A stretch of 55,433 nt of DNA from Thermoanaerobaculum sp. (GTDB lineage: Bacteria; Acidobacteriota; Thermoanaerobaculia; Thermoanaerobaculales; Thermoanaerobaculaceae), in the NCBI GenBank assembly GCA_025060245.1, contig JANXCP010000003.1:1-55433 (forward strand), in the 5' to 3' direction. The translations under genes were made by a program, and so were the position numbers. The first letter of the stretch is position 1. Each line of letters opens with the position of its first letter. The notes beneath the pieces are model-generated. The model was given only the letters and a program-made list of their open reading frames with translations, had not been told where the DNA came from and ran no database searches. This document shows positions 4,562 through 51,947 of this stretch, piece after piece.

Positions 4562-4926
4562 GGCCCAGGATGTGGGCAGACCTGCTGCCCCACCACCATC
4601 AGACGGTTCAACTCATCCTCCGTCAGCCGCCCGTCGGCCAAGATCAAGCGCGCTTCCCGCAACCATAGACCGCGCGTTTGGGTGCTCAACAGTCCCGCCT
4701 CGTGCCGCAGCTCCGCACAGCGAAGGGCCGCCTCCATTCGTGCCAACGCGGGAGGTCCCAAGGCGCGAGCCTGGGCTCGCAGCTGTTCCATGGTCCGCTC
4801 CCAGGCCCTTGCCTCCAGCTCGCGACCGCGACCTGCCAGCCAAAACAGGCTTGACAGCAGGACCAAAAGCAAGCCCAGCCCGAGCAACCGCCAGGCCCAT
4901 AAGGTTCCGCCGCCCCCGCGCCTCAC
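4558..4926 (-). CDS. Hypothetical single-pass membrane protein coupled to uvrB
   Basis: I do not recognise this protein of about 122 residues. I chose the GTG at 4926 because it follows a purine-rich GGTGGGGAG and leaves the divergent PBP gene its own upstream region; a longer reading frame to 5100 would run into the PBP gene. Residues about 9-29 form one strongly hydrophobic segment after a basic N-terminus, so the C-terminal helical, Arg/Leu/Glu-rich part would face the periplasm or cytosol depending on topology. The stop overlaps the uvrB ATG by four bases. Co-transcription with uvrB does not by itself imply a repair role. Confidence 0.6.
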
Positions 4927-4978
4927 GTTCTCCCCACCATCTTGACAGTCTAGCGAGTTTAGGGGGAAGCTCCCCGGG

Positions 4979-7372
4979 ATGGGTGGGAAGCTCCTGCGGT
5001 GGTTCGCCGTTGGCCTTTTGGCAGGCATCATCCTGGGTAGCTTGGCCGCGGTGGTTCTCGCCAGTTTCATTGACCTCCCGGCGGTGGAGGCCTTGACCAC
5101 CTACCAACCACCGGCGGCCACCGTGGTGAAAGCCCGGGATGGCTCGGTGATTGGCAGTTTTGCGGCAGAAAAAAGGCTTCCCGTGTCGTTTGAGCAAATC
5201 CCCAAAGTGTTTCGCGATGCCGTGCTCGCGGTGGAAGACGCCAACTTTTACCGCCACCCGGGAGTGGACCCTTCGGGGGTAGCCCGTGCGTTCCTGCGCA
5301 ACGTCCTTTCCTTAAGCAAGGCCCAAGGGGGATCAACCATTACGCAACAGCTGGCGCGAAACGTGGGGATTGTGAGCAGGGAAAAAAAGCTGATCCGGAA
5401 GCTGAAGGAAATCCTCCTGGCCATTGAAATTGAGCAAAAGTTCTCCAAGGATCAAATCTTCACCCTTTACGCCAACCAAGTGAACTTTGGTCACGGGGTT
5501 TACGGTGTCGAGGCGGCAGCACGGTTTTACTTCGGCAAGTCCGCCTCGGCCTTAACCCTTGCCGAAGCGGCCCTTTTGGCTGGGTTGCCACAACGCCCGG
5601 CTGATCTCTCTCCCCTGGACCACCCCCAGCGCGCCCTGCGGCGGCGCAACCACGTCCTGCAGCGCATGCTGGAGGAGGGGATGATTGATCGCCCCACCTA
5701 CGAGAAAGCCATTGCCGAACCCCTGGGCGCGAGCCCTCATTTTGATCGGGAAACCTCGGCGGCCTACTTCCTGGAGGAGGTCCGCCGCCTCCTGGAAAGT
5801 AGCTTGGGTACGGAATTGCTCTTGGAAGGCGGGCTCACCGCCGAGACCACCCTGGATCCCGCCCTGCAGCAGCTGGCCGAAGAGTCCTTGCGGGAGGGGT
5901 TGGTGGAACTGCAAAAACGCCTTGGTTGGCCAGGGGCGCTGCGCAATGTAAAAGAGGAGGGAATCGTCAACCTGGCCACGTTCCGCCACCCCAGCTGGCC
6001 GTACCTCCGTTGGCGGACGGGGGAGCTGGCCTATGCCCTGGTGCTGGAGGTCTCAAGCGAGCACGCGAAGCTGCTCATTGGCAACCGCCAGGCGCGTTTG
6101 GAGCTGGCGGAAGCACGCTGGACCAAGCGCTCCAGTTTGTTTTCCCTGGTCAAGCCGGGCGACCTGGTCCTGGTGCGGCTCAAGGAGGTTCCGGCGCCGC
6201 CAGGGACCGTCACCGTCTCGCTGGAAGCTGAACCGAAAGTGGAGGGCGCCCTGGTGGTTTTGGACAACCGCACCGGGGCCATTTTGGCCTTGGTTGGCGG
6301 GTTTGATTTCAACCGATCGCAGTTTGATCGGGCCATACAAGCCAAGCGACAGGTGGGTTCCGCCTTCAAGCCTATGGTCTACGCCGCCGCGTATGAGGCC
6401 GGCTACTCGCCTGCGGATACCATCTTTGACGCCCCTGTCTTGCTACCAGACGAGCAGGGGCTCCCCACCTACTGCCCTCTCAACTATTACCGCAAGTACT
6501 ACGGCATGGTGACGCTGCGCTTCGCCGTGGAACACTCCCTCAACGCCTCGGCCGTCAAACTGCAGCAAATGGTCAGCGGGGAGCGGGTCATTGACTTGGC
6601 CCGTCGCTTGGGGGTGCGCGAGGAGCTTCGCCCCTACCCCTCCATGGCCCTAGGCTCTTTTGAGCTTCCTGTGGTAACCACGGCGGCGGCCTATGCCGCC
6701 TTCGCCAATGGCGGGATGGCCGTGGAACCCTATTTTTTGCTCCGCGTCCGTGATAGCCAGGGCAAAACGCTCCTGGAGCAGCGTCCCCAGGTGCGGCAAG
6801 CCCTCAGTCAGCAGGTGGCGTACATGATGACCCATACCCTCACCGGCGTGGTGCAACGGGGCACCGCCGCCAAGGCAGCCTCCCTGCCGGGACACCTGGC
6901 GGGGAAAACCGGCACCACCGATGCCTATACCGATGCCTGGTTCATCGGCTATTCGCCGCGCATCACCTGTGCCGTGTGGGTGGGGAGGGATAAAAAAGAG
7001 CCCATTGGTCGGCGGATGACCGGTGCTGAGGCGGCGTTGCCCACCTGGATCCGCTTCATGCAGGCCTACCTGCAGCGACTGCCGGAAGCCATTCGCAGCG
7101 AGGACTTTCCCCTCCCCCCCTCGGGGGTAACCCTCATCCCCGTGGACCCACGGACCGGCCTGCGGGCTACCCCCGATTGCGGAGATAACGTCATCCTAGA
7201 GGCGGTTCCCGAGGACAAGCTGCCACCGGCGTGCTCGGCCCAAGCCCATCGGATCGCCGAGCTTCCCTGGGAACAGCAGTTGCGGTATTACACCTTCAAG
7301 CCCGGTGAGCCACTGACCACGCCGGAGGCCATCGCCGTTGCTGCCGCCAAGGCAAGCGAAAAGGATCAATGA
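4979..7372 (+). CDS. Bifunctional class A penicillin-binding protein (PBP1A type)
   Basis: This 797-residue cell-wall synthase polymerises lipid II and cross-links the strands outside the cytoplasmic membrane. An N-terminal membrane anchor spans residues 8-31. The GT51 glycosyltransferase shows EDANFYRH (catalytic Glu86), the QGGSTITQQLARN motif at 116-128 and the NQVNFGHGVYGVEAA helix near 166-180. The transpeptidase shows SAFK with nucleophile Ser461, SLN at 520-522 and KTGTT at 643. An insert of about 100 residues lies between the two domains, as in PBP1A. There is no Shine-Dalgarno; a small hairpin (GGGGA/TCCCC, 4963-4975) sits directly before the ATG. The CDF-like gene follows after three bases. 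Confidence 0.95.
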   Translation: MGGKLLRWFAVGLLAGIILGSLAAVVLASFIDLPAVEALTTYQPPAATVVKARDGSVIGSFAAEKRLPVSFEQIPKVFRDAVLAVEDANFYRHPGVDPSGVARAFLRNVLSLSKAQGGSTITQQLARNVGIVSREKKLIRKLKEILLAIEIEQKFSKDQIFTLYANQVNFGHGVYGVEAAARFYFGKSASALTLAEAALLAGLPQRPADLSPLDHPQRALRRRNHVLQRMLEEGMIDRPTYEKAIAEPLGASPHFDRETSAAYFLEEVRRLLESSLGTELLLEGGLTAETTLDPALQQLAEESLREGLVELQKRLGWPGALRNVKEEGIVNLATFRHPSWPYLRWRTGELAYALVLEVSSEHAKLLIGNRQARLELAEARWTKRSSLFSLVKPGDLVLVRLKEVPAPPGTVTVSLEAEPKVEGALVVLDNRTGAILALVGGFDFNRSQFDRAIQAKRQVGSAFKPMVYAAAYEAGYSPADTIFDAPVLLPDEQGLPTYCPLNYYRKYYGMVTLRFAVEHSLNASAVKLQQMVSGERVIDLARRLGVREELRPYPSMALGSFELPVVTTAAAYAAFANGGMAVEPYFLLRVRDSQGKTLLEQRPQVRQALSQQVAYMMTHTLTGVVQRGTAAKAASLPGHLAGKTGTTDAYTDAWFIGYSPRITCAVWVGRDKKEPIGRRMTGAEAALPTWIRFMQAYLQRLPEAIRSEDFPLPPSGVTLIPVDPRTGLRATPDCGDNVILEAVPEDKLPPACSAQAHRIAELPWEQQLRYYTFKPGEPLTTPEAIAVAAAKASEKDQ

Positions 7373-7375
7373 GCT

Positions 7376-8005
7376 ATGACGCAGGATCAAGGAACCCGGG
7401 AGCGACTTCTTGGGGCGGCATGGCGCCTGGAGCTGTTTACCCTGGGCTGGAACATTGCCGAGGGGGTCGTTGCCGTCCTCGCCGCCATCGCCGCCAAGAG
7501 CCCTGTGCTTCTCGGCTTTGGCGTGGATAGCTTCGTGGAGAGCACCTCCGCCCTGGTTCTGCTCTGGCGCCTCGGCCGGGAGCGGCGAGGGCTTGGGGTG
7601 GAGCCAGTGGAAGCGGTGGACCGAAAGGCAGAGAAGTTGGTGGCTTTGAGCCTGCTCCTGTTGGCTGGGTACGTGGCCTGGGAAGCGGTGCGGGCACTGC
7701 GGGGTGGGGAAATCCCTCAGCCCAGCGTGGTGGGCATTGCCCTCACCTCCCTGTCCCTGGTGGTGATGGTGCTCTTGGCTCGGGCCAAGCGGCGGCTGGC
7801 AAAGCAGTTGGGAAGTGGGGCTCTGGCCGCCGATGCGGTGCAGACCACCGCTTGCTGGTGGCTTTCTTCCATCACCTTGGCAGGTTTGGCACTGAACGCC
7901 ACTTTTGGGTGGTGGTGGGCCGACCCTTTGGCAGCCCTAGGAGTGTGCGTGTACCTGGTTCGGGAAGCCTGGGAACACGCCCGGGGCGAGCAGGAGAAGG
8001 ATTGA
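7376..8005 (+). CDS. CDF-like cation transporter, membrane domain only
   Basis: This 209-residue protein has about six hydrophobic segments and resembles the membrane domain of cation diffusion facilitators, which export divalent metals by proton exchange. TM1 carries WNxxE, and the second segment has GFGVDSFVES with the family aspartate. The segment that normally holds the HxxxD zinc pair reads instead ADAVQTTACWWLSS, and the C-terminal cytosolic domain is absent. This matches a divergent subgroup usually labelled 'cation transporter', so the substrate cannot be stated. It starts three bases after the PBP gene and is probably in its operon. Confidence 0.7.
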   Translation: MTQDQGTRERLLGAAWRLELFTLGWNIAEGVVAVLAAIAAKSPVLLGFGVDSFVESTSALVLLWRLGRERRGLGVEPVEAVDRKAEKLVALSLLLLAGYVAWEAVRALRGGEIPQPSVVGIALTSLSLVVMVLLARAKRRLAKQLGSGALAADAVQTTACWWLSSITLAGLALNATFGWWWADPLAALGVCVYLVREAWEHARGEQEKD

Positions 8006-8243
8006 ACCAGGGGGGATTTTTGGGTGAGCCTGGCAACCTCACGGAAAGCTTTTTCCCTTTTCACCGTTGCCTGATGAATGGCTTGCCCAGGGCAGAATCT
8101 TCCCAGGTCTGGGAGGGCAAGGTGAGGGAACAGGGCAGAGGAGCAAATCCGCCCTGGTAACCGGCACAGAGCCAAGAAATGGTCCTCAAGGATGCAAAGA
8201 TAAGGGGCCCAGTCAACGAGAAAGGTTGGGAAGCGGGCTACGT

Positions 8244-8684
8244 TTAGTTGGGAATGGAGCGCAGCTCGCGGAGAAACTCGTCCGCCTCCAAGAAACCGGC
8301 GATGCGGTGGACTTCCCGCCCTTGGCCGTCCAAAAACACCAAGGTTGGATAGGTGGTAATGGCAAAAGCATCAGCGGTGCTTTTCCCCTCCGCCTCGGCG
8401 TTAAGGCGCACCGCCACGAACCGCTCTCGCAAGGTGGTAGACACCGATGGGTCAGCCAGGGTGGTGGACTCTAGGCGCTGGCACCAACGACACCAATCGG
8501 TATAAAAGTCCACCATCACCAATTTGCGCTCCTTTTGCGCCTTGTCCATGGCGGAAGCCAAATCCGCCTCCCAGGGAATGGCCGCCGCGGGCCGTGCTCC
8601 CCCCCGGGGGCCCATGATCAAGCTCAAACCCACCACCACGCCGAACACCATAGCCAACAAAGCTCCCGTACGCACCTTCATCAC
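8244..8684 (-). CDS. Exported thioredoxin-like protein
   Basis: This 146-residue protein has an N-terminal signal or anchor segment (residues about 6-26) and a thioredoxin fold with the active site FYTDWCRWCQRL (CxxC near residues 65-68) and a TYPT cis-proline loop. The arrangement matches the soluble DsbD-gamma/thioredoxin_7-like proteins that keep periplasmic cysteines reduced. A role beside DsbD (27,042) or in haem attachment with the Ccm genes (14,148 onward) is plausible but inferred. It stands alone on the reverse strand; the 238 bases between it and the CDF-like gene hold no gene I can support. Confidence 0.85.
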   Translation of the reverse strand: MMKVRTGALLAMVFGVVVGLSLIMGPRGGARPAAAIPWEADLASAMDKAQKERKLVMVDFYTDWCRWCQRLESTTLADPSVSTTLRERFVAVRLNAEAEGKSTADAFAITTYPTLVFLDGQGREVHRIAGFLEADEFLRELRSIPN

Positions 8685-8794
8685 AACCCCCGCGCCCTTC
8701 TATGCCTGTACCCTCCCCTTGGTAACAGCGTGAAGCGGTAGCCCTCCGCTTCGCCGGCCTTCTTGGCGCTCCCGAGGTGGTCTCAGACGGACCT

Positions 8795-9256
8795 CTAGTC
8801 CACTTTAATCACGGGCCCGTGGCGCTCTAAAGGGGAGGTGAGGCATACCTCGGTGGCCGAGCGCACAAAACCCGGGACCTTGTGCAGTCGCGAAAGCAAG
8901 AGCTCTTGCAGGTGCACCGTGTCGCGAGCACGAACCTTCACCACCAAGTCGTACTCGCCCGTAATGAGGTGGACCTCCTCCACCTCCGGGATCCCTGCCA
9001 ACTCGCGCACGATCTTGTCCAACCCGGCCGCCAAGTCCACCCGGACATGGACCAACGCCGTCACCGTATAACCCAAAGCCTGCGGGTCCACCCGCACTTC
9101 AAAGCCCTTCACCACCCCCGCCGCCCGCATCTTGCCCAGGCGCTCGTGCACCGTTGCCGGTGCCACTCCGTACCGCTCGGCAATGGCGGACAGCGGCATG
9201 CGGCCGTTTTCCTGTAAGGCCGCTAAGATCTTTCGGTCAAGGGCGTCCAATTTCAT
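8795..9256 (-). CDS. Lrp/AsnC family transcriptional regulator
   Basis: This 153-residue regulator has the standard Lrp layout. The N-terminal helix-turn-helix opens with LDALDRKILAALQENGR, recognises DNA through the ISAIAERYGVAPATVHERL-like helices (about residues 20-40), and is followed by a RAM/ACT ligand-binding domain with the GEYDLVVKVR strand near residues 98-107. Lrp proteins are octameric or dimeric sensors of amino acids. It is divergent from homoserine dehydrogenase with only 71 bases between the starts, and an inverted repeat (9280-9295) lies in that gap, so it probably controls hom and the aldehyde dehydrogenase gene and itself. Confidence 0.93.
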   Translation of the reverse strand: MKLDALDRKILAALQENGRMPLSAIAERYGVAPATVHERLGKMRAAGVVKGFEVRVDPQALGYTVTALVHVRVDLAAGLDKIVRELAGIPEVEEVHLITGEYDLVVKVRARDTVHLQELLLSRLHKVPGFVRSATEVCLTSPLERHGPVIKVD

Positions 9257-9279
9257 AGGGCCATTCTAGCGGATGGTAA

Positions 9280-9309
9280 TGTGTCTTTTTTCACAAGGTA
9301 TGGCATAAT
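9280..9309 (+). promoter_or_regulatory. Candidate operator and -10 element for hom
   Basis: The gap between the Lrp-type gene and hom contains TGTGT-N6-TCACA (9280-9295), nine of ten arm positions matching the symmetric TGTGA-N6-TCACA pattern, followed by CATAAT (9304-9309), five of six for a sigma-70 -10. No good -35 is visible, fitting an activator- or repressor-controlled promoter. GGAGG at 9316-9320 is the hom ribosome binding site. Confidence 0.45.
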
Positions 9310-9327
9310 GGCGGCGGAGGACCGTTT

Positions 9328-10374
9328 ATGCAGCTCAAACTAGCGTTAATTGGATTTGGCGTCGTCGGGCAAGGAGTGGCCAAGATCTTGGGCGATCGGG
9401 GCGAGTTTTTCCGCTCCCGTTACGGCGCAGACTTGGTGATTACCGCCGTCACCGATGTGAAAAAAGGCGCCGTGGCCGACCCTAAAGGCCTCAACCCCAA
9501 GGCGCTCCTGGATCACCTTGAGCAGCATGGTGACCTCACCACCTTTCCCGCCCCTGAGCGGGGTTGGGACGCCCTCACCACCATTCAGAGGGCGGAAGCC
9601 GACGTGGTGGTGGAGGTTTCCTGGACCGATGTGAAAACCGGGGGAGCCGCGTTGGGCCACTTGAGAGAGGCCTTTGCCTGCGGCAAACATGTGGTCACCA
9701 CCAACAAGGGGCCCATGGTGGTGGCACCCTGGGAGATGCTTGAGGCGGCAGGGCGGGCCGGCGTGGAGTTTCGCTTTGAGGGGACCGTCATGTCCGGTAC
9801 GCCGGTCATCTCCACCGCGTGGAGGGGGCTGCGCGGCTGTGAGATCACCGGGTTTTCGGGAGTCCTCAACGGAACCACCAACTTCATGTTGACCCGCATG
9901 GAGGAAGGCCTCACCTATGAGCAAGCCCTGGCCGAAGCCCAACGTTTGGGCTACGCCGAAGCAGACCCCTCGGGAGACGTTCTGGGTTGGGATGCCGCGG
10001 GGAAAGTGGTGATTTTGACCAACACGGTTTTGCGCTGTCCCCTCAAGCTGGAAGAGGTGCAGCTGGCTACGGGCATCACGGAAATCACCCCCGCGCAGGT
10101 GGAGGAGGCCAAACGTGCAGGCCAGCGGTGGAAACTGGTGGCCCAGGCTGCGGTGGAGGACGGCCAAGTACGGGCCAGCGTTTTGGCCAAGCGCATTCCC
10201 CTGGCCGATCCCTTGGCCGGCGTGATGGGCCCCACCAACGCGGTCACCTTTCACACGGACCTCTTGGGTCCAGTGACCATTGTGGGTGCCGGTGCGGGGC
10301 AAAAGGAAACTGCCTTTGCGGTGATTTCCGATCTGTTGGACATTCACTCGGCGCTGGTGGCGCGCCAACGCTAA
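9328..10374 (+). CDS. hom: Homoserine dehydrogenase, short form
   Basis: This 348-residue enzyme interconverts aspartate semialdehyde and homoserine with NAD(P)H. The Rossmann motif is IGFGVVGQGVAKIL near residues 8-21, TTNKGP near residue 127 precedes the catalytic domain, GTVMSGTPVI and LNGTTNFML mark the homoserine site, and YAEADPSGDVLGWDAAGK near residues 209-226 carries the conserved Asp/Lys pair. It lacks the C-terminal ACT domain, so threonine feedback through that domain is not expected. The start has GGAGG with a seven-base spacer. An aldehyde dehydrogenase gene follows after ten bases, and an Lrp regulator is divergent. Confidence 0.93.
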   Translation: MQLKLALIGFGVVGQGVAKILGDRGEFFRSRYGADLVITAVTDVKKGAVADPKGLNPKALLDHLEQHGDLTTFPAPERGWDALTTIQRAEADVVVEVSWTDVKTGGAALGHLREAFACGKHVVTTNKGPMVVAPWEMLEAAGRAGVEFRFEGTVMSGTPVISTAWRGLRGCEITGFSGVLNGTTNFMLTRMEEGLTYEQALAEAQRLGYAEADPSGDVLGWDAAGKVVILTNTVLRCPLKLEEVQLATGITEITPAQVEEAKRAGQRWKLVAQAAVEDGQVRASVLAKRIPLADPLAGVMGPTNAVTFHTDLLGPVTIVGAGAGQKETAFAVISDLLDIHSALVARQR

Positions 10375-10384
10375 GGAGGCCTTT

Positions 10385-11806
10385 ATGGACATGCTCATCA
10401 ATGGCCGCTGGGTTAGAACTCCCCAAACCATTCCCGTGACCGATCCTTGGGACGGGTCACTCGTGGACACGATCCCCCACGGGACTGCCAGCCACGTGGA
10501 CGAAGCCATTACCGCGGCTGTGGCCGCGTTCCGCACCTGGCGGTTCTCCACGGTGGCGCAACGGATGGAGATCTTGCGCCAGGTCACCGAGACCGTGCGC
10601 GCCAACCTAGAGGAGTTTGCCAGGATCATTGCCCGAGAGGGCTCCAAGACCATCCGCGAGGCGCGGAAAGAGGCGCGACGCTGCGTGAACACCTTGAGCC
10701 TCTCGGCGGAGGAGGCCCGCCGCCTGTACGGGCAAACCATCCCCTTCGACTCCTTCCCCGGCGGCGAACACCGCCACGGTTACTGGTACCGCGAGCCCAT
10801 CGGGGTGATTGCCGCGATTACCCCGTTCAACGATCCCCTCAACCTGGTGGCCCACAAGCTGGGTCCGGCCATCGCTGGGGGGAACACGGTGGTGCTGAAG
10901 CCGGCCACCGTCACCCCCCTTTCGGCGCTCAAGTTGGCGGAAGCCTTCCAGGAGGCTGGGCTGCCACCGGGGGTGCTGAACGTGGTCACCGGTCCAGGAG
11001 GCGAGGTGGGCGATCCCCTGGTCTCCGACCCACGGGTGCGGATGATCTCCTTCACCGGCGGGGTGGAAGCAGGGTTGCACATCACCCGCCTGGCCGGGCT
11101 GAAAAAGATCGGCATGGAACTGGGTTCCAACTCGCCGGTGATCGTGATGGCCGATTGCGACTTTGACCGGGCGGTGGCCGACACCGTCTCCGGCGCCTTT
11201 TGGGCCGCCGGCCAAAACTGCATCGGCGTGCAAAGGGTCTACGTGCAAAGGCCGATTTTTGATCGCTACCTCGAGGCCTTTGTGGCCAAGACCAAGACCT
11301 ACAAGGTTGGTCCCAAACTGGAAGAGGATTGCGACATGGGGCCGGTGATCACCGAGGGCGAGGCGATCCGCATTGAGCAGTGGATTCGCGAGGCGGAGGC
11401 CGGTGGTGCCACCGTTCACTGCGGCGGCCGGCGCGGTGGCCCCGTGGGAACGGTCATTGAGCCCACCGTCATGACTGGGGTCACCTTTGAGATGAAACTG
11501 GGTTGTCAAGAAGTGTTTGGCCCCGTGGTGGCTCTGGCTCCCTTTGACGAGCTGGAGGAGGCGGTCAGGCTGGCCAACAGTGTGGACTACGGCTTACACG
11601 CCGCCATCTTCACCCGTTCCTTAGCCGCCGCGCATTACGCCATCAAGCACTTGGAATGCGGTGGGGTGATCGTCAACGACTCCACGGACTACCGCCTAGA
11701 TCAGATGCCCTTTGGCGGCATCAAGAATTCCGGCCTCGGCCGCGAGGGGGTTGCCTTTGCCCTGTTGGAGATGACCGAGCCCAAGGTGGTGTGCTTTACT
11801 GAGTAG
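10385..11806 (+). CDS. NAD(P)-dependent aldehyde dehydrogenase
   Basis: This 473-residue member of the aldehyde dehydrogenase superfamily oxidises an aldehyde to the acid in the cytosol. It shows the N-terminal oligomerisation segment, the ITPFNDPLN substrate loop, KPATVTPLSAL (cofactor lysine), SFTGGVEAG, MELGSNSP with the general-base glutamate, GQNCIGVQR with the catalytic cysteine, and a C-terminal NDSTDYRLDQMPFGGIK stretch. The last motif resembles lactaldehyde, phosphonoacetaldehyde and sulfoacetaldehyde dehydrogenases, but substrate cannot be read from sequence. Being ten bases behind hom and under the same Lrp-type regulator suggests an amino-acid-linked semialdehyde. Its 3' end overlaps the convergent membrane glycosyltransferase gene by 11 bases. 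Confidence 0.9.
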   Translation: MDMLINGRWVRTPQTIPVTDPWDGSLVDTIPHGTASHVDEAITAAVAAFRTWRFSTVAQRMEILRQVTETVRANLEEFARIIAREGSKTIREARKEARRCVNTLSLSAEEARRLYGQTIPFDSFPGGEHRHGYWYREPIGVIAAITPFNDPLNLVAHKLGPAIAGGNTVVLKPATVTPLSALKLAEAFQEAGLPPGVLNVVTGPGGEVGDPLVSDPRVRMISFTGGVEAGLHITRLAGLKKIGMELGSNSPVIVMADCDFDRAVADTVSGAFWAAGQNCIGVQRVYVQRPIFDRYLEAFVAKTKTYKVGPKLEEDCDMGPVITEGEAIRIEQWIREAEAGGATVHCGGRRGGPVGTVIEPTVMTGVTFEMKLGCQEVFGPVVALAPFDELEEAVRLANSVDYGLHAAIFTRSLAAAHYAIKHLECGGVIVNDSTDYRLDQMPFGGIKNSGLGREGVAFALLEMTEPKVVCFTE

Positions 11807-14030
11807 TTTCTTCAACCGGCAGGCTTTGAGCCAGCGGTAGACCGGGATAAAAGGCCAGGCGATGGACCACCACCCCCAAGGAGCGGGGGTCGTTGGGGGC
11901 TTGGTACGGTCGCGTGGACAGGGTGAGCAGAACGCGCTGGGCAAAGCGTACCTCCGGGGGGGTGGGGACCTCGGCGTAGGTCACCTCCGGAGGCACCTGG
12001 AGGAGCATTTGGTTCGTCCCTAAGGAGACGATCACTTGCGCCCCCCCAGGCCGGGGAGCGGAGAGCCACAGGCCCACCCGGCCCGAGCTCACGGGCAACT
12101 CCCATGTGCAGTTCGGCTCGCACCAAGCCCCCTCCCCCTCGCCCAGCCGTTCCGGAGCGAAGACGCGGGCCGCCCGCACGGCCTTCCGGTGCAGCTCCCG
12201 CGGCTCCGGGTTCACCGTGTAGGGCTTCGCGCTCCACGGGGGAAACTCCAGGGAAACAAAAAAGACCTTCAGCGCCAAAGGCCGGTAATCGCCGGCCAAC
12301 TTGCGAAACTGATCCGCCTGGAGCCTCAGCGGTACCACCTGGCCATGGCCGGCCCGCTCGGGGAGCAGCGGCACGCTCCAACCCACCAAAGCTCGCTCCC
12401 CCGCCGCCTCCTCCACGCCCAAATCCACGTCTCCCGCCCAGGCCCGCACGGTGGCGCGGCCAACCCCCGGAGGTAACTCCACCGCCATCGTTAGGCGACC
12501 CGCGGCGGAGAGGGCAGGAAGGAGCACAGTGGCCTGGGGGTAAAGCCAGACAAAGGGATGCCCTTGTTCGTGCTCCAGCACCGAGCCACCGGCGTAGACG
12601 ATCACCGGATTCTCCACCGCCGCGGCCTGCAGGAACCGCCCCTGGGAGAGAGCCACCGCACGAGGTTCGTTGACCGCGAAAGAGCTCACCCGGGACACAG
12701 AGGAGGACAAAAACGAGGGGTAAGACTCCTCCACCAGGAACAGTCGCTCGCCGGCAAGGCGGAAGGCGGGGGACTTAAGCTCTGAGTACCGCAAGCTGGC
12801 GCAGGGAAAAGCGCCGGTGCGGGCCAAGAAGTTGCGAAAGGAGAACAGCTCATCCTGAAAGACCACGGTGCATGGGGGCGTTGCTGATGCCTTGAGGAAA
12901 GCCTCTACCACCGGCAAAGGATGGTCCCGCATATGCCGCAGGGCGGGATAGGTCCAAGTGGAAAAAAAGAGCGTCCCCGCTCCAACCGTTGCCAGCACCC
13001 AAACCCGCCGCCGCAACACCCACACAAGCCCTTGTACCACCAGAACCGCTGCCACCTGCAGCGCCAACACCCAGTAACGCGGGTAGGTGCGATTGTGGAC
13101 CAAAAGCAAGAGGTACACCAGCCAAAGCCCAGCCAGGCTGGCAAGCCAAAAGCTGTGGGAGGAGAGGCGCTGGCGGAGGGAGAGCCACCCCACCAGGCCT
13201 ACCCCAGAAAAAACCAGCGCTGGTAAGGGACCGCCCAGTCCTTTTACCCAGCCAATTTGTTCCAGCGTGGCTTCCTCCGTGCCCAAAAGGAAGCTGTGCT
13301 CCCAGGCATGGGTGATTAGGCTTTCCCAGTAGTATTGCCAGCCACCGGCCTCCAACACCAGGGGTCCCAAGGTGACGAGCAGAAGGGCCAAGGAGGCGAG
13401 GGCAGCGGCGAGCAGGCTTTTTCCATTTTGCCGCACCTGCCAGGCCCAAAGGAGCCCCACCAGGAAAAACCACGGTGCCAACGGGGGTCGGATGAGGGCC
13501 GCAGCGGTGAGAAAAAACAGACACAGGGGAAAGCTCGCCGGCCCCCGGTGGAGCCAAAGGGCAAGCGCCACGAAGAACACCGCCGCAGCTGGCGTTTCCG
13601 AGAAACCGCGGGCAGCATGGACCCAAACCCCCGGGAGGAAAGCTGCCAACGTGGCCGCCGCCAAAGCCCATGATTGGCCCACAAGGGACCGAGCCACAAA
13701 GAACATCGCTGCCACCCCCAGCAAAGACAGGAGAGCACTGGCCATTTGCAGTGCCTCCAGGGGACCGGGGGCACCCAAAGCCCAAACCACTCGGCCCAAC
13801 AAGACCCACAGGGGAAAACCAGGTGGGTGGGGCATGTGGTCCAACGGGTCAAAGTCCACCACGCCAGCTGCCAAGAGGGCCTCATCCTGTTCCCAAGGGC
13901 CCCGAGGCAAAAACCCAAAGCGCGAGGCCGCCACCACAAGGAGCAGGAGCAAGAGACCCCGGTGCCCTGCAGTTGCCTGGAAAACCCGCTGCAAAAAAAG
14001 GCGAGAGACCCTCACGCCCAACCTGCTCAC
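11796..14030 (-). CDS. GT-C membrane glycosyltransferase (family 39/ArnT-like)
   Basis: This 744-residue protein has roughly ten to twelve hydrophobic segments in the first 430 residues followed by a soluble, probably periplasmic, domain of about 300 residues. The first extracytoplasmic loop carries PWEQDEALL followed by FDPLDHMPHPPGFPLW, the position of the acidic catalytic pair in PMT/ArnT-type enzymes that transfer sugars from polyprenyl-phosphate donors. The acceptor (protein, lipid or polysaccharide) is not indicated. The start may be slightly downstream of 14030, since several basic residues precede the first helix. It is divergent from the ccm cluster, and its 3' end overlaps the aldehyde dehydrogenase gene. 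Confidence 0.75.
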   Translation of the reverse strand: MSRLGVRVSRLFLQRVFQATAGHRGLLLLLLVVAASRFGFLPRGPWEQDEALLAAGVVDFDPLDHMPHPPGFPLWVLLGRVVWALGAPGPLEALQMASALLSLLGVAAMFFVARSLVGQSWALAAATLAAFLPGVWVHAARGFSETPAAAVFFVALALWLHRGPASFPLCLFFLTAAALIRPPLAPWFFLVGLLWAWQVRQNGKSLLAAALASLALLLVTLGPLVLEAGGWQYYWESLITHAWEHSFLLGTEEATLEQIGWVKGLGGPLPALVFSGVGLVGWLSLRQRLSSHSFWLASLAGLWLVYLLLLVHNRTYPRYWVLALQVAAVLVVQGLVWVLRRRVWVLATVGAGTLFFSTWTYPALRHMRDHPLPVVEAFLKASATPPCTVVFQDELFSFRNFLARTGAFPCASLRYSELKSPAFRLAGERLFLVEESYPSFLSSSVSRVSSFAVNEPRAVALSQGRFLQAAAVENPVIVYAGGSVLEHEQGHPFVWLYPQATVLLPALSAAGRLTMAVELPPGVGRATVRAWAGDVDLGVEEAAGERALVGWSVPLLPERAGHGQVVPLRLQADQFRKLAGDYRPLALKVFFVSLEFPPWSAKPYTVNPEPRELHRKAVRAARVFAPERLGEGEGAWCEPNCTWELPVSSGRVGLWLSAPRPGGAQVIVSLGTNQMLLQVPPEVTYAEVPTPPEVRFAQRVLLTLSTRPYQAPNDPRSLGVVVHRLAFYPGLPLAQSLPVEETTQ

Positions 14031-44435: not shown

Positions 44436-45704
44436 CTAACGGCTCACCTTACCCTTTGCTCGCCGCAGCTCTTCCGCCATTTGCTTAATTTCCGCCAGGT
44501 CTCGCTTGAGCTCGCTCCAACCGTACCAGAGGGCGTAATCCGGATTGGCGTGAAAGGTACCCTGGAAAGCCCGCATACGATGCTCCAGGTGCATAACAAA
44601 TAGCCTTTGCTCAATGGGCGTTGGCGCGTCATGGAAGGTGAGGAGGTCGGGGAAGGGGAACGCGTAGTGCTCCGGTTTCTGCAACACACCCTCCTGGTAG
44701 AGTCGGGCTACCTCCCGGATAGCCTCCGCCAGGAGCCGATCGCTTTCCCGAATCATTTCATCGCCCCTCTTCAGATGGTCTTGGGCGAACGCCGGCGAGT
44801 GACACTGTTGGCAGACCCGCAGCATCTTCTCTCGCTCACGGGTAAAAGCCTCGTGACTGAGGCGCGCCACGTCGGCCTTTTTGACCAATTCCAGGCGAGG
44901 CGTGGGCTTCCCCTGCGGGTCCAACACGCCGAGAGCTTTGAGAATCGTCACCTGGTCCTCCGCCCACTGCTTGTCTTCCGGCAAGGGCAAACGCACGGCG
45001 AGAAATCCCCAGGCCGTACGGACCTCGTGATCGCCGTCGGGCATGTGGCAGGTTTGACAGGTGGGTGCAGCCACCGTTTCCGGCAACACCTTGGATTGTT
45101 TTAAGAGGTAGCGGACACCGTGCTTGGAAGTGGAATACATTTCCCACTGCGGGTGGTCAAACCCCATGTGGCAGGTTTGACAAGCTTGCGGTTGACGGGC
45201 CTCTTCCACCGAAAAGAGGTGGCGGGTGTGGCATGCGTCACAGGAAGCTAGGCCAAATCCAGCGCCGGACGCCTTCAGTTCCCGCAGATCAGCTTCACTC
45301 TTGAGGCCGATCTTGTGACACCCTCCGCAACCTTTCATGCCTTCCCGCAGGGCCACGGGCAGCGCGTGGGTAGTGGGCATGGCCTTCATGGCCGCCCAGG
45401 CGAGCGCGTGCTTGCCTTTCGTGAACTGGTTTACCTGCGTCTCGTGGCAGGGTGCACAGGTTTGGGGGGTGGGAATCTTGGCCTTGGCCACGTCGTCCGC
45501 ACCCTTGTGATCGCTCCCGTGGCAGGTGTCGCAGCCCACTCCAGAGCTTTGGTGCTTGGACAGTTGCCAATCGGCCACGATCCCGGGTGTCACCTGCCGG
45601 TGGCACCCCACGCAGGGTTCCTGGGGCGGGGAAGCCTCAGGCCGAGGGATAGCGTAGGCCACCAGGAGCAACCCCCAGATTACCTCTTTCACCGCTTGCC
45701 GCAT
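44436..45704 (-). CDS. Octaheme c-type cytochrome, hydroxylamine-oxidoreductase family
   Basis: This 422-residue exported protein has a signal peptide (about residues 1-25) and exactly eight CxxCH haem sites at residues 31, 58, 83, 126, 155, 175, 216 and 298, with no CxxCK. The wide spacing of the last site and the long, mostly helical C-terminal part (about 305-422, with FHANPDYALWYGW) match octaheme HAO-type (multihaem PF13447) cytochromes used in hydroxylamine, nitrite or hydrazine chemistry or in respiratory electron transfer. Which reaction is done here cannot be read. I chose ATG 45704 because AGGAGG lies eight bases upstream; GTG 45713 has no spacer. A strong promoter precedes it. It depends on the Ccm system seen at 14,148-19,165. 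Confidence 0.88.
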   Translation of the reverse strand: MRQAVKEVIWGLLLVAYAIPRPEASPPQEPCVGCHRQVTPGIVADWQLSKHQSSGVGCDTCHGSDHKGADDVAKAKIPTPQTCAPCHETQVNQFTKGKHALAWAAMKAMPTTHALPVALREGMKGCGGCHKIGLKSEADLRELKASGAGFGLASCDACHTRHLFSVEEARQPQACQTCHMGFDHPQWEMYSTSKHGVRYLLKQSKVLPETVAAPTCQTCHMPDGDHEVRTAWGFLAVRLPLPEDKQWAEDQVTILKALGVLDPQGKPTPRLELVKKADVARLSHEAFTREREKMLRVCQQCHSPAFAQDHLKRGDEMIRESDRLLAEAIREVARLYQEGVLQKPEHYAFPFPDLLTFHDAPTPIEQRLFVMHLEHRMRAFQGTFHANPDYALWYGWSELKRDLAEIKQMAEELRRAKGKVSR

Positions 45705-45739
45705 CGTCCTCACCTCCTACGATAAAAATATTGCAACCA

Positions 45740-45768
45740 AATCTAATCCGCAATCACGTGATTGTCAA
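45740..45768 (-). promoter_or_regulatory. Promoter of the octaheme cytochrome gene with a palindrome in the spacer
   Basis: On the reverse strand TTGACA (45763-45768, perfect -35), a 17-base spacer and TAGATT (45740-45745, four of six) form a good sigma-70 promoter. A perfect 14-base palindrome, CAATCACGTGATTG (45751-45764), lies in the spacer and overlaps the -35, the standard place for a repressor operator. Confidence 0.7.
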
Positions 45769-47889: not shown

Positions 47890-48272
47890 CGTCTCATCAG
47901 GGAATCCAGAATGCGCAGAAAGGCCCGCTGTTGTTCCGGCTCATTCTTTTCAATAACGCACAGGCAGCCAGTGGCATCAAACACCTCGTGGAGGCGGTCG
48001 GCGGGGTGAGCTGAGGTGACGATGATGCGCTTTGGGTGGACCCCCCGAGCCACCGCTTCCTCCAACACCACACGACCGTCCATTTCCGGCATTTCCCAGT
48101 CGAGAAGCATCAGGTGCACGTCCGGCCCCACTGCCAGGAGGGCCGCCTTGGGATCGGTATAGGTCTCCACCACCGCTTTTTCCGGGTATCGCTGTTCCAA
48201 GAACCGCTTGAAGGCCAAGCACTGGGTAGGTGAGTCGTCCACCACCACGATGCGCTTAGGGCCCTCACCCAC
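47886..48272 (-). CDS. Single-domain response regulator (receiver only)
   Basis: This 128-residue CheY-like protein has the acidic pocket VVVDDSPTQ, the phosphorylation aspartate in LLDWEMPEMDG (near residue 58), a VTSAHP switch threonine/serine and the conserved lysine in VIEKNE (near 108). There is no output domain, so it may act by protein binding. It begins with GTG 48272, overlapping the pyrC end by eight bases, and its stop overlaps the next gene by four. No histidine kinase is near. Confidence 0.9.
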   Translation of the reverse strand: MGEGPKRIVVVDDSPTQCLAFKRFLEQRYPEKAVVETYTDPKAALLAVGPDVHLMLLDWEMPEMDGRVVLEEAVARGVHPKRIIVTSAHPADRLHEVFDATGCLCVIEKNEPEQQRAFLRILDSLMRR

Positions 48273-49551
48273 GGCGAAACACCACCCGCCCGCCCACGAT
48301 GGTCATGGCTGGCCAACCCCGGAGCCGACGACCGGCAAACGGGGTATTGCGGGACTTGGAACGAAACTTTTCCGGCTTTACGGTGGCTCGCTGCTCCGGA
48401 TCAAGGAGGGTGAGGTCGGCGGGAGCTCCCACTTTAAGGCTTCCGCCGGGAAGGCGGAAGATTCGCGCCGGGTTGGTGGACCAGCAGGCCACGAAACGGG
48501 ATAGAGGCATGCGATGTTTCGCCACCAAGAGATCAAAGGTTACCGGTACCGCCGTTTCCAGGCCCACGACGCCGAAGGGTGCGTGGTCAAACTCCACGTT
48601 CTTTTCATCGGCGTGATGGGGCGCATGGTCCGTGGCCAAGCAATCCACCGTACCATCCAGGACCCCCTCCACCAGAGCCTGCACGTGCTCCGCAGAGCGC
48701 AACGGGGGGTTCATCTTGGTGTTGGTGTCGTACTGCGTCTCCGCCACCGCTTGGTCGGTGAGGGCCAAATGGTGCGGGGTGACCTCGCAGGTTACCTTGA
48801 GGCCGCGGGCTTTTGCCAGCCGCACCGCTTCCAGTGCCCCGGCAGTGGAAAGGTGGGCAATATGCACCCGCGCTCCCGTCAGCTGCGCCAGGACCACATC
48901 GCGCCAGACCATGACCTCTTCCGCCGCCGCCGGGATCCCCCGCAAACCCAACCGGGTGGCCACAGCCCCTTCGTGCATGACCCCCCGCGCCGTCAAGGTG
49001 GGCTCCTCGCAGTGATCCACCACCGGGACGTCAAACAAGAGACTGTACTCCAGCGCCCGTCGCATGAGGTACGCGGAGTGGACCGGCTTCCCATCGTCGG
49101 AAAAACCCACCGCCCCCGCGCGCACCATCTCGCCCATTTCCGCCAGCTCTTCCCCCGCCAGCCCCTTGCTTACCGCCCCGATGGGGTAGACGCGGCAGTT
49201 TCCCGCCTCACGGGCGCGGGTCAAAATGTATTCCGTCACCGCCGGGTTGTCGTTCACCGGGTTGGTGTTGGGCATGCAGCACACAGCGGTAAAGCCCCCC
49301 GCCACCGCCGCCGCGGTGCCCGATGAGATGGTCTCTTTGTACTCAAACCCCGGCTCCCGCAAGTGCACGTGCACGTCAATGAACCCCGGCGCCACCACCA
49401 AACCCGTGGCATCCACCACCTGGGCGTTGGGATCAGCTAATCGCTCGGCGAGACGGGCAATCTTACCCTCCACCACCAAGATATCCAGCCCTTCATCCAG
49501 TTTCTGGCTTGGGTCGACGACGCGGCCGTTCTTAATCAGTAACCGGCTCAC
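48265..49551 (-). CDS. pyrC: Dihydroorotase
   Basis: This 428-residue amidohydrolase of the PyrC/type I (long) class closes carbamoyl-aspartate to dihydroorotate. The zinc motif HVHLREPG near residue 60, the following [17 protein letters not shown] stretch, DHCEE, HIAHLST and the [12 protein letters not shown] aspartate all fit. The carboxylated-lysine type of type I enzymes is probably used. The start has a good fit with [14 protein letters not shown], and its ATG lies 20 bases inside pyrB. Confidence 0.96.
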
Positions 49552-50488
49552 CGCTTCCTCCCGCCAGCAGGTACAACACCGCCATTCGCACCGCCACGCC
49601 GTTGGTCACCTGCTCCAGGATGACCGACTGCGGACCGTCAGCCACCCGGGAATCAATTTCTACCCCGCGGTTCATCGGGCCTGGGTGCATCACCAGGCAA
49701 TCCTTCTTGGCCAGCTTCAAACGTTCCGGGGTGAGGGCAAAAAGGTCGTAGTACTCCCGCACGGTGGGGAAGTTCATGCGCTCCTGCCGCTCCAGCTGGA
49801 TGCGCAGCATCATCACCACATCGGCGCCGCGGATTGCCTCCTCCATGCGGTAGAACACTTGGCAACCCAGGCTTTCCATTCCCACGGGCACCAGGCTCGG
49901 GGGACCCGCTACCCGCACCGTGGCACCCATCCGGGACAGGAGCAGCACATTGGACCGCACCACCCGCGAGTGCTGCAAATCACCCACGATGGCCACCACG
50001 AGCCCTTCTAAGGTCTTCTTGTGTAAGCGAATGGTCAGGGCATCCAAGAGCGCCTGAGTGGGGTGCTCGTGGGTACCATCCCCCGCGTTGATGATGGAAG
50101 CCTGGAGCACCTTGGCCAGCATGTGCGGGGCCCCCGGCTGTGGGTGCCGAAGGACGATGAAATCGGGCTCCATGGCCTCCAAGTTGCGTGCCGTATCCAC
50201 CAGGGTCTCGCCCTTTTCCACTGACGAGCCGCTGGCGGAAAAGTTTAACGTGTCGGCGGACAGGCGCTTTTCCGCCACTTCAAAGGAAAAACGGGTGCGA
50301 GTGGAGGGCTCTAAGAACAGGTTGACCACCGTTTTGCCTCGCAACGCCGGCACCTTCTTAATGGGCCTTTTGGCGATCTCCCGCATTTGCTCGGCGGTGT
50401 CCAAGATCAGCTGGATTTCCCCTGGCGACAGCGGATCAATACCCAAAAGGTGCCGACTCTTCAAGGACGGGGCCGCCTTGACGGTCAT
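49532..50488 (-). CDS. pyrB: Aspartate carbamoyltransferase catalytic chain
   Basis: This 318-residue enzyme joins carbamoyl phosphate and aspartate, the first committed pyrimidine step. It has the carbamoyl-phosphate loop [42 protein letters not shown] and [11 protein letters not shown]. No regulatory chain gene (pyrI) is adjacent. I chose ATG 50488 because it gives the family N-terminus and overlaps pyrR by four bases. Confidence 0.97.
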
Positions 50489-51036
50489 CGATCCTCCTCC
50501 TTCACGATCCACACCCCCTCTTCCCCGTCGCACTCGGATAGCCGCACCTGGACATCCTCCAGGCGCGAGGTGGGAACCAATCGCCCCACCACGTCAGCGG
50601 CAATGGGTAGCTCCCGGTGGCCACGGTCCACCAGCACCGCCAATCGGATGACCTGAGGACGGCCGTAATCCATGAGCGTATCAAGGGCGGCGCGGATGGT
50701 CCGGCCTGTGTACAGCACATCGTCCACTAACACGATGACTTGGCCATCCACCGGCTTGGGCAATTGCGTGGCACGCAAAACCGGTTGACGGTGGGCTGGT
50801 CGCCAAGGCCCCACGTCATCGCGGTAGAGGGTAATGTCCAAGGCCCCCACCGGCGCGGGCGAACCGGTCTTTTGCCCGACCAGATGGGCCAGCCGGTGCG
50901 CCAGGGGAACCCCGCGCGTCTGAATCCCGACGAAATAGAGCTTTTTCTCATCCGGGACTTTTTCAAGTATTTCCGCCGCCATCCGCTCCAGGACCCGGCT
51001 CAGCTCTTTCGCTTCCAAGACCAGCACCCGCTTCAT
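50485..51036 (-). CDS. pyrR: Bifunctional pyr operon regulator/uracil phosphoribosyltransferase
   Basis: This 183-residue PyrR shows the PRPP-binding loop [17 protein letters not shown] near residue 100 and the [14 protein letters not shown] segment. PyrR proteins bind pyr mRNA in response to UMP and also make UMP from uracil. Only 47 bases separate it from the upstream EamA gene, so there is no room for a full attenuator directly in front of it. It overlaps pyrB by four bases. Confidence 0.95.
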
Positions 51037-51083
51037 CCGGACCCCCAACGTTCCGCCGCCTGCGGATGCTAGCACAGCCCACC

Positions 51084-51947
51084 TCACCTGCTGCCCGACA
51101 CCCCGCCGGTAGGCCAGTATTCCAGGACCAAAGCGGCCAAAACCAACACCGCGCCGGGAACCACATGGAGGGGGGGCGCTTCGCCCAAGAACACCCACAC
51201 CCACAGGGAAGCCAGAGCAGGCTCCAGCAAGACCGTCAAGTTGACTTGGTAGGTGGGCAAATGAGCCAGGGCCCAGTTGAGCAAGGTGTGTCCGATCAGC
51301 GTGGGTCCCAACGCCATGCCCAAGAGGGTGAGCCAGGAAAGGGTGTTCGCCGGTTGAGGCGAGACCTTCCCCAGGCACAGGGCCACCCACAGGAGCAGCG
51401 CACCAGCGCCGTTAACTACCCAAAGGTAGGCGGCTAAGGGCACACGCGCCCGCAACTTGGTTCCCACCAGGAGATACCCAGCCATCGCCACCGCTCCCCC
51501 TAGGGCCATGAGGTCACCCACGAGGGCGCGCAGGGAAAGCTGCAGGTCCCCCCAGGCAATGACCACGACCCCGCCAAAGGCCAAGGTGAAGGAGACGAAG
51601 TTGCGGAAGGTTACCGGTCGGCCCAATACCCGCCCTTGCAACAGGAGAACCCACAGGGGCTGGGTGGTGACCAGCACCACGGAGGCGGAAACCGAAGTCA
51701 AAAACAGCGAGGGAATCCACAGGCCGAAGTGCAACGCCAAGAAAAGGCCGGCCCACAAGCCGTGAAGAAGTGCTTTAGGAAGTGGCCAAAAACGCCACAG
51801 GACCAGTGGCGTGAGCATCATGGAGGCTAGAGTCAGCCGCCAGGCCGCCACTGCCAAGGGTGCCGCCTGCGTCATCCGCGCCAATGGGGCACCCCAGGAA
51901 ATGGCCAGCACCGCCGCCGCCAGCGCCAACATAACCCGTTGCCTCAT
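51084..51947 (-). CDS. EamA/DMT-family transporter
   Basis: This 287-residue protein has ten hydrophobic segments in two EamA repeats (the first around residues 5-135, the second around 145-275), characteristic of drug/metabolite transporters. SWGAPLARMTQAAPLAVAAWR is the typical first-repeat start and FGGVVVIAWGD follows. The substrate is unknown. The ATG overlaps the amidase stop by four bases, so the two are coupled. Confidence 0.88.
   Translation of the reverse strand: MRQRVMLALAAAVLAISWGAPLARMTQAAPLAVAAWRLTLASMMLTPLVLWRFWPLPKALLHGLWAGLFLALHFGLWIPSLFLTSVSASVVLVTTQPLWVLLLQGRVLGRPVTFRNFVSFTLAFGGVVVIAWGDLQLSLRALVGDLMALGGAVAMAGYLLVGTKLRARVPLAAYLWVVNGAGALLLWVALCLGKVSPQPANTLSWLTLLGMALGPTLIGHTLLNWALAHLPTYQVNLTVLLEPALASLWVWVFLGEAPPLHVVPGAVLVLAALVLEYWPTGGVSGSR

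Follow-up and report, generated by a model that had tools for sequence, protein, structure and literature searches.

The stretch of DNA analyzed here (the window, 55,433 nucleotides) carries on its minus strand the gene for an octaheme cytochrome of the HAO family, whose features are collected in Table 1. The open reading frame can begin at a GTG or at an ATG three codons inside it; the ATG form fits the coordinates and length given in an earlier note, which was made from the letters alone, and a Shine-Dalgarno-like element, GTAGGAGGTGAGG (also given as GGAGGTGAGG), lies upstream of this ATG. The relatives described below show that the frame is real and that its sequence is not due to chance. 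The spacer of the sigma70-like promoter contains a 14-bp perfect palindrome, CAATCACGTGATTG, the sole copy in the genome in a search allowing up to one mismatch. Two sister species keep a promoter at the corresponding site (TTGACG-17-GATATT, read by eye), and the palindrome is absent from the octaheme promoters of both. The palindrome is a candidate operator; because it is unique in the genome and missing from the sister promoters, no regulon could be built around it. The neighboring genes encode a radical SAM/SPASM protein, a methyltransferase, an AMP-ligase, and a response regulator, none of them informative. Farther along the window, at positions 48265-51390 of the minus strand, are pyrC-pyrB-pyrR-like pyrimidine genes, identified by eye from their translations as ordinary housekeeping genes.

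Table 1. Features of the octaheme cytochrome gene and its upstream region; residues follow the 425-residue numbering from the GTG
Feature	Position in window	Strand	Remarks
Octaheme HAO-family cytochrome gene	44436..45704	-	ATG start, 422 aa; 44436-45713 from GTG at 45713, 425 aa
Sigma70-like promoter, TTGACA-17-TAGATT	45740..45768	-	Pattern search: 1 found versus 0.2 expected
14-bp perfect palindrome, CAATCACGTGATTG	45751-45764		Inside promoter spacer
Signal-peptide-like N terminus, residues 4 to ~29	45626..45704	-	Sequence inspection, not predictor
Heme 1, CVGCH, residues 34-38	45600..45614	-	Alignment with HAO
Heme 2, CDTCH, residues 61-65	45519..45533	-	Alignment with HAO
Heme 3, CAPCH, residues 86-90	45444..45458	-	Alignment with HAO
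Heme 4, CGGCH, residues 129-133	45315..45329	-	Aligns with heme 4 of solved HAOs, the catalytic heme position
Heme 5, CDACH, residues 158-162	45228..45242	-	Alignment with HAO
Heme 6, CQTCH, residues 178-182	45168..45182	-	Alignment with HAO
Asp186-His187	45153..45158	-	Aligns with Nitrosomonas HAO Asp267-His268, active-site pair
Heme 7, CQTCH, residues 219-223	45045..45059	-	Alignment with HAO
Clade-specific heme 7-heme 8 segment, ~residues 236-285, GFLAVRLPLPED..ILKALGVLD..	44859..45008	-	
Heme 8, CQQCH, residues 301-305	44799..44813	-	Alignment with HAO
C-terminal motif, H388-ANPDY393-AL-W396-Y397-G-W399	44517..44552	-	

All eight CxxCH sites that the earlier note had counted are present, and they hold every one of the 16 cysteines of the protein. 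No CxxCK occurs in it, and no other open reading frame of at least 60 codons in the 55-kb window bears a CxxCH. Export, also claimed at the outset, is supported by the signal-peptide-like N terminus, which is modeled by AlphaFold as a helix at residues 4 to 20 and has comparably hydrophobic counterparts in the homologs. The long C-terminal helical region is predicted by the same model as three helices (residues 307 to 340, 366 to 387, and 391 to 424). Histidines 54, 102, 165, 198, and 229 align with His residues of most reference chains, as expected of distal ligands; this pattern is consistent with bis-His hemes and one open heme, and heme 4 would be the five-coordinate one. The Asp186-His187 pair beside it is invariant within the clade.

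Several independent comparisons support the assignment to the HAO family. A sequence search of the PDB returned HAO, HOX, HDH, reducing HAO, and IhOCC; a Pfam search matched PF13447 at 91.6 bits against a cutoff of 21.9; and the eight CxxCH motifs pair one to one and in order with those of six solved HAO-family chains, so that the heme order agrees with that of HAO. The AlphaFold monomer model (mean pLDDT 80, pTM 0.76) has low confidence near the active site, at residues 160 to 165 and 183 to 186, as expected of a model built without hemes. When compared with the PDB by Foldseek, it gave 11 HAO-family matches, with E values from 5e-11 (6h5l, the Kuenenia reducing HAO) to 5e-9, after which the E value jumps to 0.46 for ONR/NrfA. 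In phylogenies, the check that the earlier note had proposed, the protein was placed within the family, not outside it, the outcome named there as fatal to the assignment. A heme order at odds with HAO, the other such outcome, did not arise either. Membership in the HAO family thus holds on sequence, Pfam, heme order, fold search, and trees. Identity as an ONR/NrfA enzyme was rejected: these proteins belong to the same class of multiheme c-type nitrite chemistry, with hemes partly superposable with HAO-type hemes (PMC8840924), but their catalytic heme is bound by a CxxCK that the octaheme protein lacks, and the fold matched only at E values of 0.46 or more.

Both by fold (E = 5e-11) and by PDB sequence, the best match is Kuenenia stuttgartiensis HAOr (PDB 6h5l, Kustc0457/0458), which shares with the octaheme protein the heme order, the Asp-His pair, and a Trp at the cross-link position. 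The two are about 24% identical; the octaheme protein is ~90 residues shorter than the crystallized chain, carries an insert of its own between hemes 7 and 8, and appears to branch outside the AOB/anammox clade. The same fold, heme order, and equivalents of D267/H268 are found in Nitrosomonas europaea HAO (1fgj/4fas) and the anammox HOX/HDH (4n4j, 6hif), which appear in the trees as the sister group of the octaheme protein. Ignicoccus hospitalis IhOCC (4qo5) shares the family fold and the eight hemes; it has Asp-Val in place of Asp-His, carries an additional WPN segment, and is distant in the tree.

Two maximum-likelihood trees separate the clade of the octaheme protein, together with AOB/anammox HAO/HDH, from eHao-like proteins and IhOCC (SH-aLRT/UFboot support, 99.1/100 and 98.8/98). 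The five AOB/anammox reference chains are monophyletic (95.1/99 in the first tree, 89.5/95 in the second), and the larger tree gives weak support (28/66) to monophyly of the octaheme clade. Branch lengths in both are rough, because the references were assembled from alignment pieces and HDH lacks its C terminus. Clustering with the oxidizing enzymes speaks for a protein that oxidizes hydroxylamine or a hydrazine-like compound, with a P460-type cross-link through Tyr397 or Tyr393, a reading that we hold to be very improbable.

The search for the tyrosine that cross-links heme 4, another check called for at the outset, found Trp396 at the aligned position, not Tyr, with Tyr397 next to it. In N. 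europaea HAO (NeHAO), Tyr467, the P460 cross-link residue, stands eight residues past a conserved His, and the Tyr of Kuenenia HOX stands at the same distance; the residue there is Trp in the octaheme protein and in the reducing HAOr 6h5l, and eHao-like proteins also have Trp when counted from their Met. The H...DY..WYG motif is found in 85 of 86 homologs, the lone exception being a broken open reading frame, and Tyr393 and Tyr397, which flank Trp396, are invariant. NeHAO is one residue longer in this stretch, and the choice of alignment anchor shifts the result by one residue: anchoring on the His gives Trp396, a C-terminal or gap-minimized alignment gives Leu395, and anchoring on the Gly sets the HOX Tyr opposite Tyr397. 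Because the anchors disagree, the Trp396 assignment is preferred and not closed. On the Gly anchor, the invariant Tyr393 and Tyr397 can match two Kuenenia HOX tyrosines, as the oxidative reading would have it. The switch from reductive to oxidative enzymes has moreover been described as His to Tyr (PMC12758564), and the column concerned may be that adjoining Trp396. Nevertheless, with Trp in place of the cross-linking Tyr by the His anchor, a nitrifier-type oxidase is disfavored, and by the published rule that HAOs lacking the Tyr are reductive (PMC8940962, PMC12758564), the protein would be a reductive enzyme. Also against oxidation, the clade is spread widely over anaerobic-type lineages, where no hydroxylamine source is apparent, and no match to ammonia monooxygenase was found in the host genome, a search that had no positive control anywhere and is uninformative.

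A Trp at this position is equally a mark of eHao, the Nap-linked octaheme HAO of Campylobacterota and Caldithrix, for which the published rule is a Trp at the Tyr position and a Met eight residues earlier (PMC8940962). The octaheme protein shares with eHao the eight hemes and the Asp-His pair, and for both, electron donors other than Nap are possible. It might accordingly be imagined as an eHao-type respiratory reductase that converts nitrite to ammonium, serving as the terminal step after a periplasmic nitrate reductase; nitrite reduction is documented in vitro for the HAO-family reductases of Campylobacterota (PMC9213671) and has been predicted for the Caldithrix enzyme (PMC5317091), and an eHao- or IhOCC-like paralog adjoins the gene in four relatives. 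We consider this unlikely. Where the clade has an invariant His388, eight residues before the Trp, eHao-like proteins have Met; they carry, between hemes 4 and 5, a WPNTGIGR-NPDGS segment that the octaheme protein does not have, and they lack the heme 7-heme 8 insert, are located in nap operons, and occupy another branch of the tree. Tree position, His388, and the absence of both the WPN segment and nap genes led us to reject membership in eHao; no nap gene was found near the octaheme gene or detected in the host genome. A NapA-like molybdoenzyme lies near the gene (within ~4.2 kb) in only 3 of 82 relatives.

Congeners of the host provide a natural comparison. Two of them have the same octaheme gene and, separately, an eHao-like paralog in a nap operon. 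In one sister genome (G001), the operon at positions 4649-13529 of locus L121 encodes a Rieske protein, cytochrome b, the eHao-like octaheme protein, a tetraheme protein, NapA-like, NapD-like, and NapG-like proteins, and NapH; on its predicted gene content, this is a Nap-eHao nitrate ammonification cluster, and it is missing from the genome of the window. Because the congeners hold the octaheme gene beside a separate nap-eHao and the host has kept only the octaheme gene, the octaheme protein is not tied to nitrate respiration.

The clade is compact and widely distributed. At least 533 relatives were found in genome contigs; the best 80 of these, at 66 to 78% identity over ~370 to 420 residues, represent at least 18 named phyla in addition to Aminicenantes and KSB1 (about 20 phyla), and by their record titles nearly all of them are MAGs. 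Their shared characters are the absence of the WPN segment seen in eHao and IhOCC and a heme 7-heme 8 segment of their own, missing in solved HAOs and eHao-like proteins. Identities this high between phyla suggest, as far as sequence conservation can indicate, a constrained enzyme more than a loose electron wire. Phylum labels change 33 times on the clade tree, compared with a minimum of 17 and a shuffled mean of 45, which suggests much lateral transfer within the clade, with the caveat of misbinned contigs. A more divergent subclade (45 to 49% identity) occurs in the same order of Acidobacteriota, with L129 and L130 intermediate. Acidobacteriota also contain another short (~395 to 399 amino acids) HAO-family lineage (L126, L134, L136, and L147), on a separate branch near eHao, with a C-terminal GGADFVQWHGN and without the WPN segment.

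Gene neighborhoods were compared around 82 homologs, with P values that treat loci as independent, which is not fully true. The clearest association is with a NapH/NosR-like polyferredoxin, present in 11 loci, always within 4 kb (P = 2e-4 against flank position), where about 0.2 loci would be expected for a single-copy gene. Marginal associations were seen for DUF438-hemerythrin-PAS proteins (within 4 kb in 7 of 8, P = 0.02) and rubrerythrin (within 4 kb in 4 of 4, P = 0.05), and Rrf2 regulators showed no positional enrichment (near the gene in 6 of 11, P = 0.4). Neighborhoods in Cloacimonadota and Zixiibacteriota include desulfoferrodoxin, ferritin, PerR/Fur-like, and Hcp genes, and in one locus Hcp (hydroxylamine reductase) and desulfoferrodoxin occur together. 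At least one stress marker lies within 6 kb in 18 of the 82 loci and none in the other 64. Gene order varies, and loci with at least two markers within 6 kb are found in Calditrichota, Bacteroidota, Ignavibacteriota, Zixiibacteriota, Cloacimonadota, Actinomycetota, and Planctomycetota; because this label changes eight times on the family tree and spans these seven phyla, the association probably has more than one origin. A methyltransferase also recurs around the homologs. Two Bacteroidota loci (L014 and L031) have the common order Rrf2, NapH-like, ferredoxin, methyltransferase beside the octaheme gene, and a ferredoxin of the same type adjoins Hcp in L060.

Rubrerythrin, desulfoferrodoxin, and ferritin fit reactive oxygen as well, and they bear on the idea that the protein reduces peroxide or a sulfur species (sulfite or tetrathionate), nitrogen compounds being side substrates only. 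A sulfur role has been speculated for clade I HAO proteins of vent Desulfobacterota (PMC9213671), and the host encodes a TtrA-like molybdoenzyme. We think this idea quite unlikely: no sulfur-metabolism gene recurs near the clade among the neighborhoods compared, and the clade clusters with the HAOs of the nitrogen cycle and retains their Asp-His pair.

The host is a hot-spring-type acidobacterium represented by a 2.35-Mb MAG that is 95% complete, which limits claims of absence. The octaheme gene is its single HAO-family gene, and its terminal oxidase is one aa3-type enzyme. No NapA-like gene, no second COX1-type (NorB-like) gene, no Hcp, and no NrfA above the cutoff was detected in this genome. 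A sister species has a second COX1-superfamily protein that is NorB-like by eye and has no NCBIfam match at 1e-10. The TtrA-like molybdoenzyme (contig C171; L123, 4289-6865) scores 430 bits, far under the TtrA cutoff, and is cut by the contig end. The earlier note's remark that no partner is nearby stands for the window; the search for partners elsewhere in the genome, which it recommended, found multiheme proteins with a NapC/NrfH-like start, for example on contig C13. A cluster on that contig (L117, 1-6000) encodes 9-, 4-, 18-, and 8-heme cytochromes and two cytochrome-b-like membrane proteins, possibly a quinol-linked or extracellular electron chain.

That multiheme cluster, and the Aminicenantes loci in which the gene is accompanied instead by ResB/CcsA, porin-like, and large multiheme genes with a NapC-like start, would suit an electron-transfer or storage cytochrome with no substrate of its own, for instance a hub in the periplasm for an extracellular electron chain. 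The invariance of Asp186 and His187, the HAO position of heme 4, and the very high conservation of the heme and C-terminal motifs across phyla leave little likelihood for such a role.

The reading that we favor, if only tentatively and at somewhat less than an even chance, is a periplasmic, quinol-fed reductive HAO that acts on NO, hydroxylamine, or nitrite, perhaps in detoxification. The secreted octaheme cytochrome c would adopt the HAO fold in the periplasm, with seven electron-transfer hemes feeding the open heme 4 beside Asp186 and His187. Lacking the Tyr that cross-links heme 4 to the neighboring subunit, it would most likely work in the reducing direction, not in gaining energy from hydroxylamine. 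Electrons from the quinol pool may arrive through a NapH-like or NapC/NrfH-like partner, in the host probably by way of other multiheme proteins encoded elsewhere. The most likely substrate is NO, a small and toxic nitrogen oxide (or else hydroxylamine or nitrite), which would be converted to hydroxylamine or ammonium by a periplasmic detoxifying or electron-sink enzyme outside any nitrate-respiration chain. We infer the direction from the Trp/Tyr rule, the substrate from family chemistry and a minority of neighborhoods, and the donor from co-occurrence; the trimer and the physiological role are proposed in the same spirit.

The heme order, the Asp-His pair, the Trp at the Tyr467 position, the best match to a reducing HAO, the neighborhoods of relatives, and the lack of detected Hcp, NrfA, NapA-like, and NorB-like genes in the host all support this reductive reading. 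Against it, stress markers accompany a minority of loci, the gene's own neighbors in the window say nothing of function, and rubrerythrin, desulfoferrodoxin, and ferritin indicate peroxide or superoxide as much as NO. Furthermore, the invariant Tyr397 adjoins the cross-link position in an alignment from which NeHAO differs by one residue, leaving some room for a cross-link. A bolder form of the proposal, which we hold to be rather doubtful, is that the whole clade is an HAO-fold NO (or hydroxylamine) reductase with a separate function, shared by horizontal transfer and used for periplasmic defense against nitrosative stress in ~20 phyla, the closest nonnitrifier relative of the nitrification and anammox enzymes and a picture of the reductive ancestor of the P460 oxidases.

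The routine annotation of HAO-family genes is hydroxylamine dehydrogenase (K10535), which is taken as a sign of nitrification. If the compact clade indeed consists of reductive enzymes for NO or hydroxylamine, many of these annotations would be wrong in sign. The HAO family is known, with its uncharacterized clades I and II in 65 phyla, and its functions outside the AOB/anammox clade and eHao are unknown (PMC9213671). In the open-access literature, we found no description of the compact clade or of its insert, sister relation to the nitrogen-cycle enzymes, and stress-type neighborhoods; the clade is widespread and very conserved and apparently has no characterized member. It offers a testable sister group for a question posed in PMC12758564, the origin of oxidative HAO from reductive ancestors. 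The HAOs reported from microbial mats, whose identity to database entries labeled nitrate reductase exceeds 74% (PMC8940962), might belong to this same clade.
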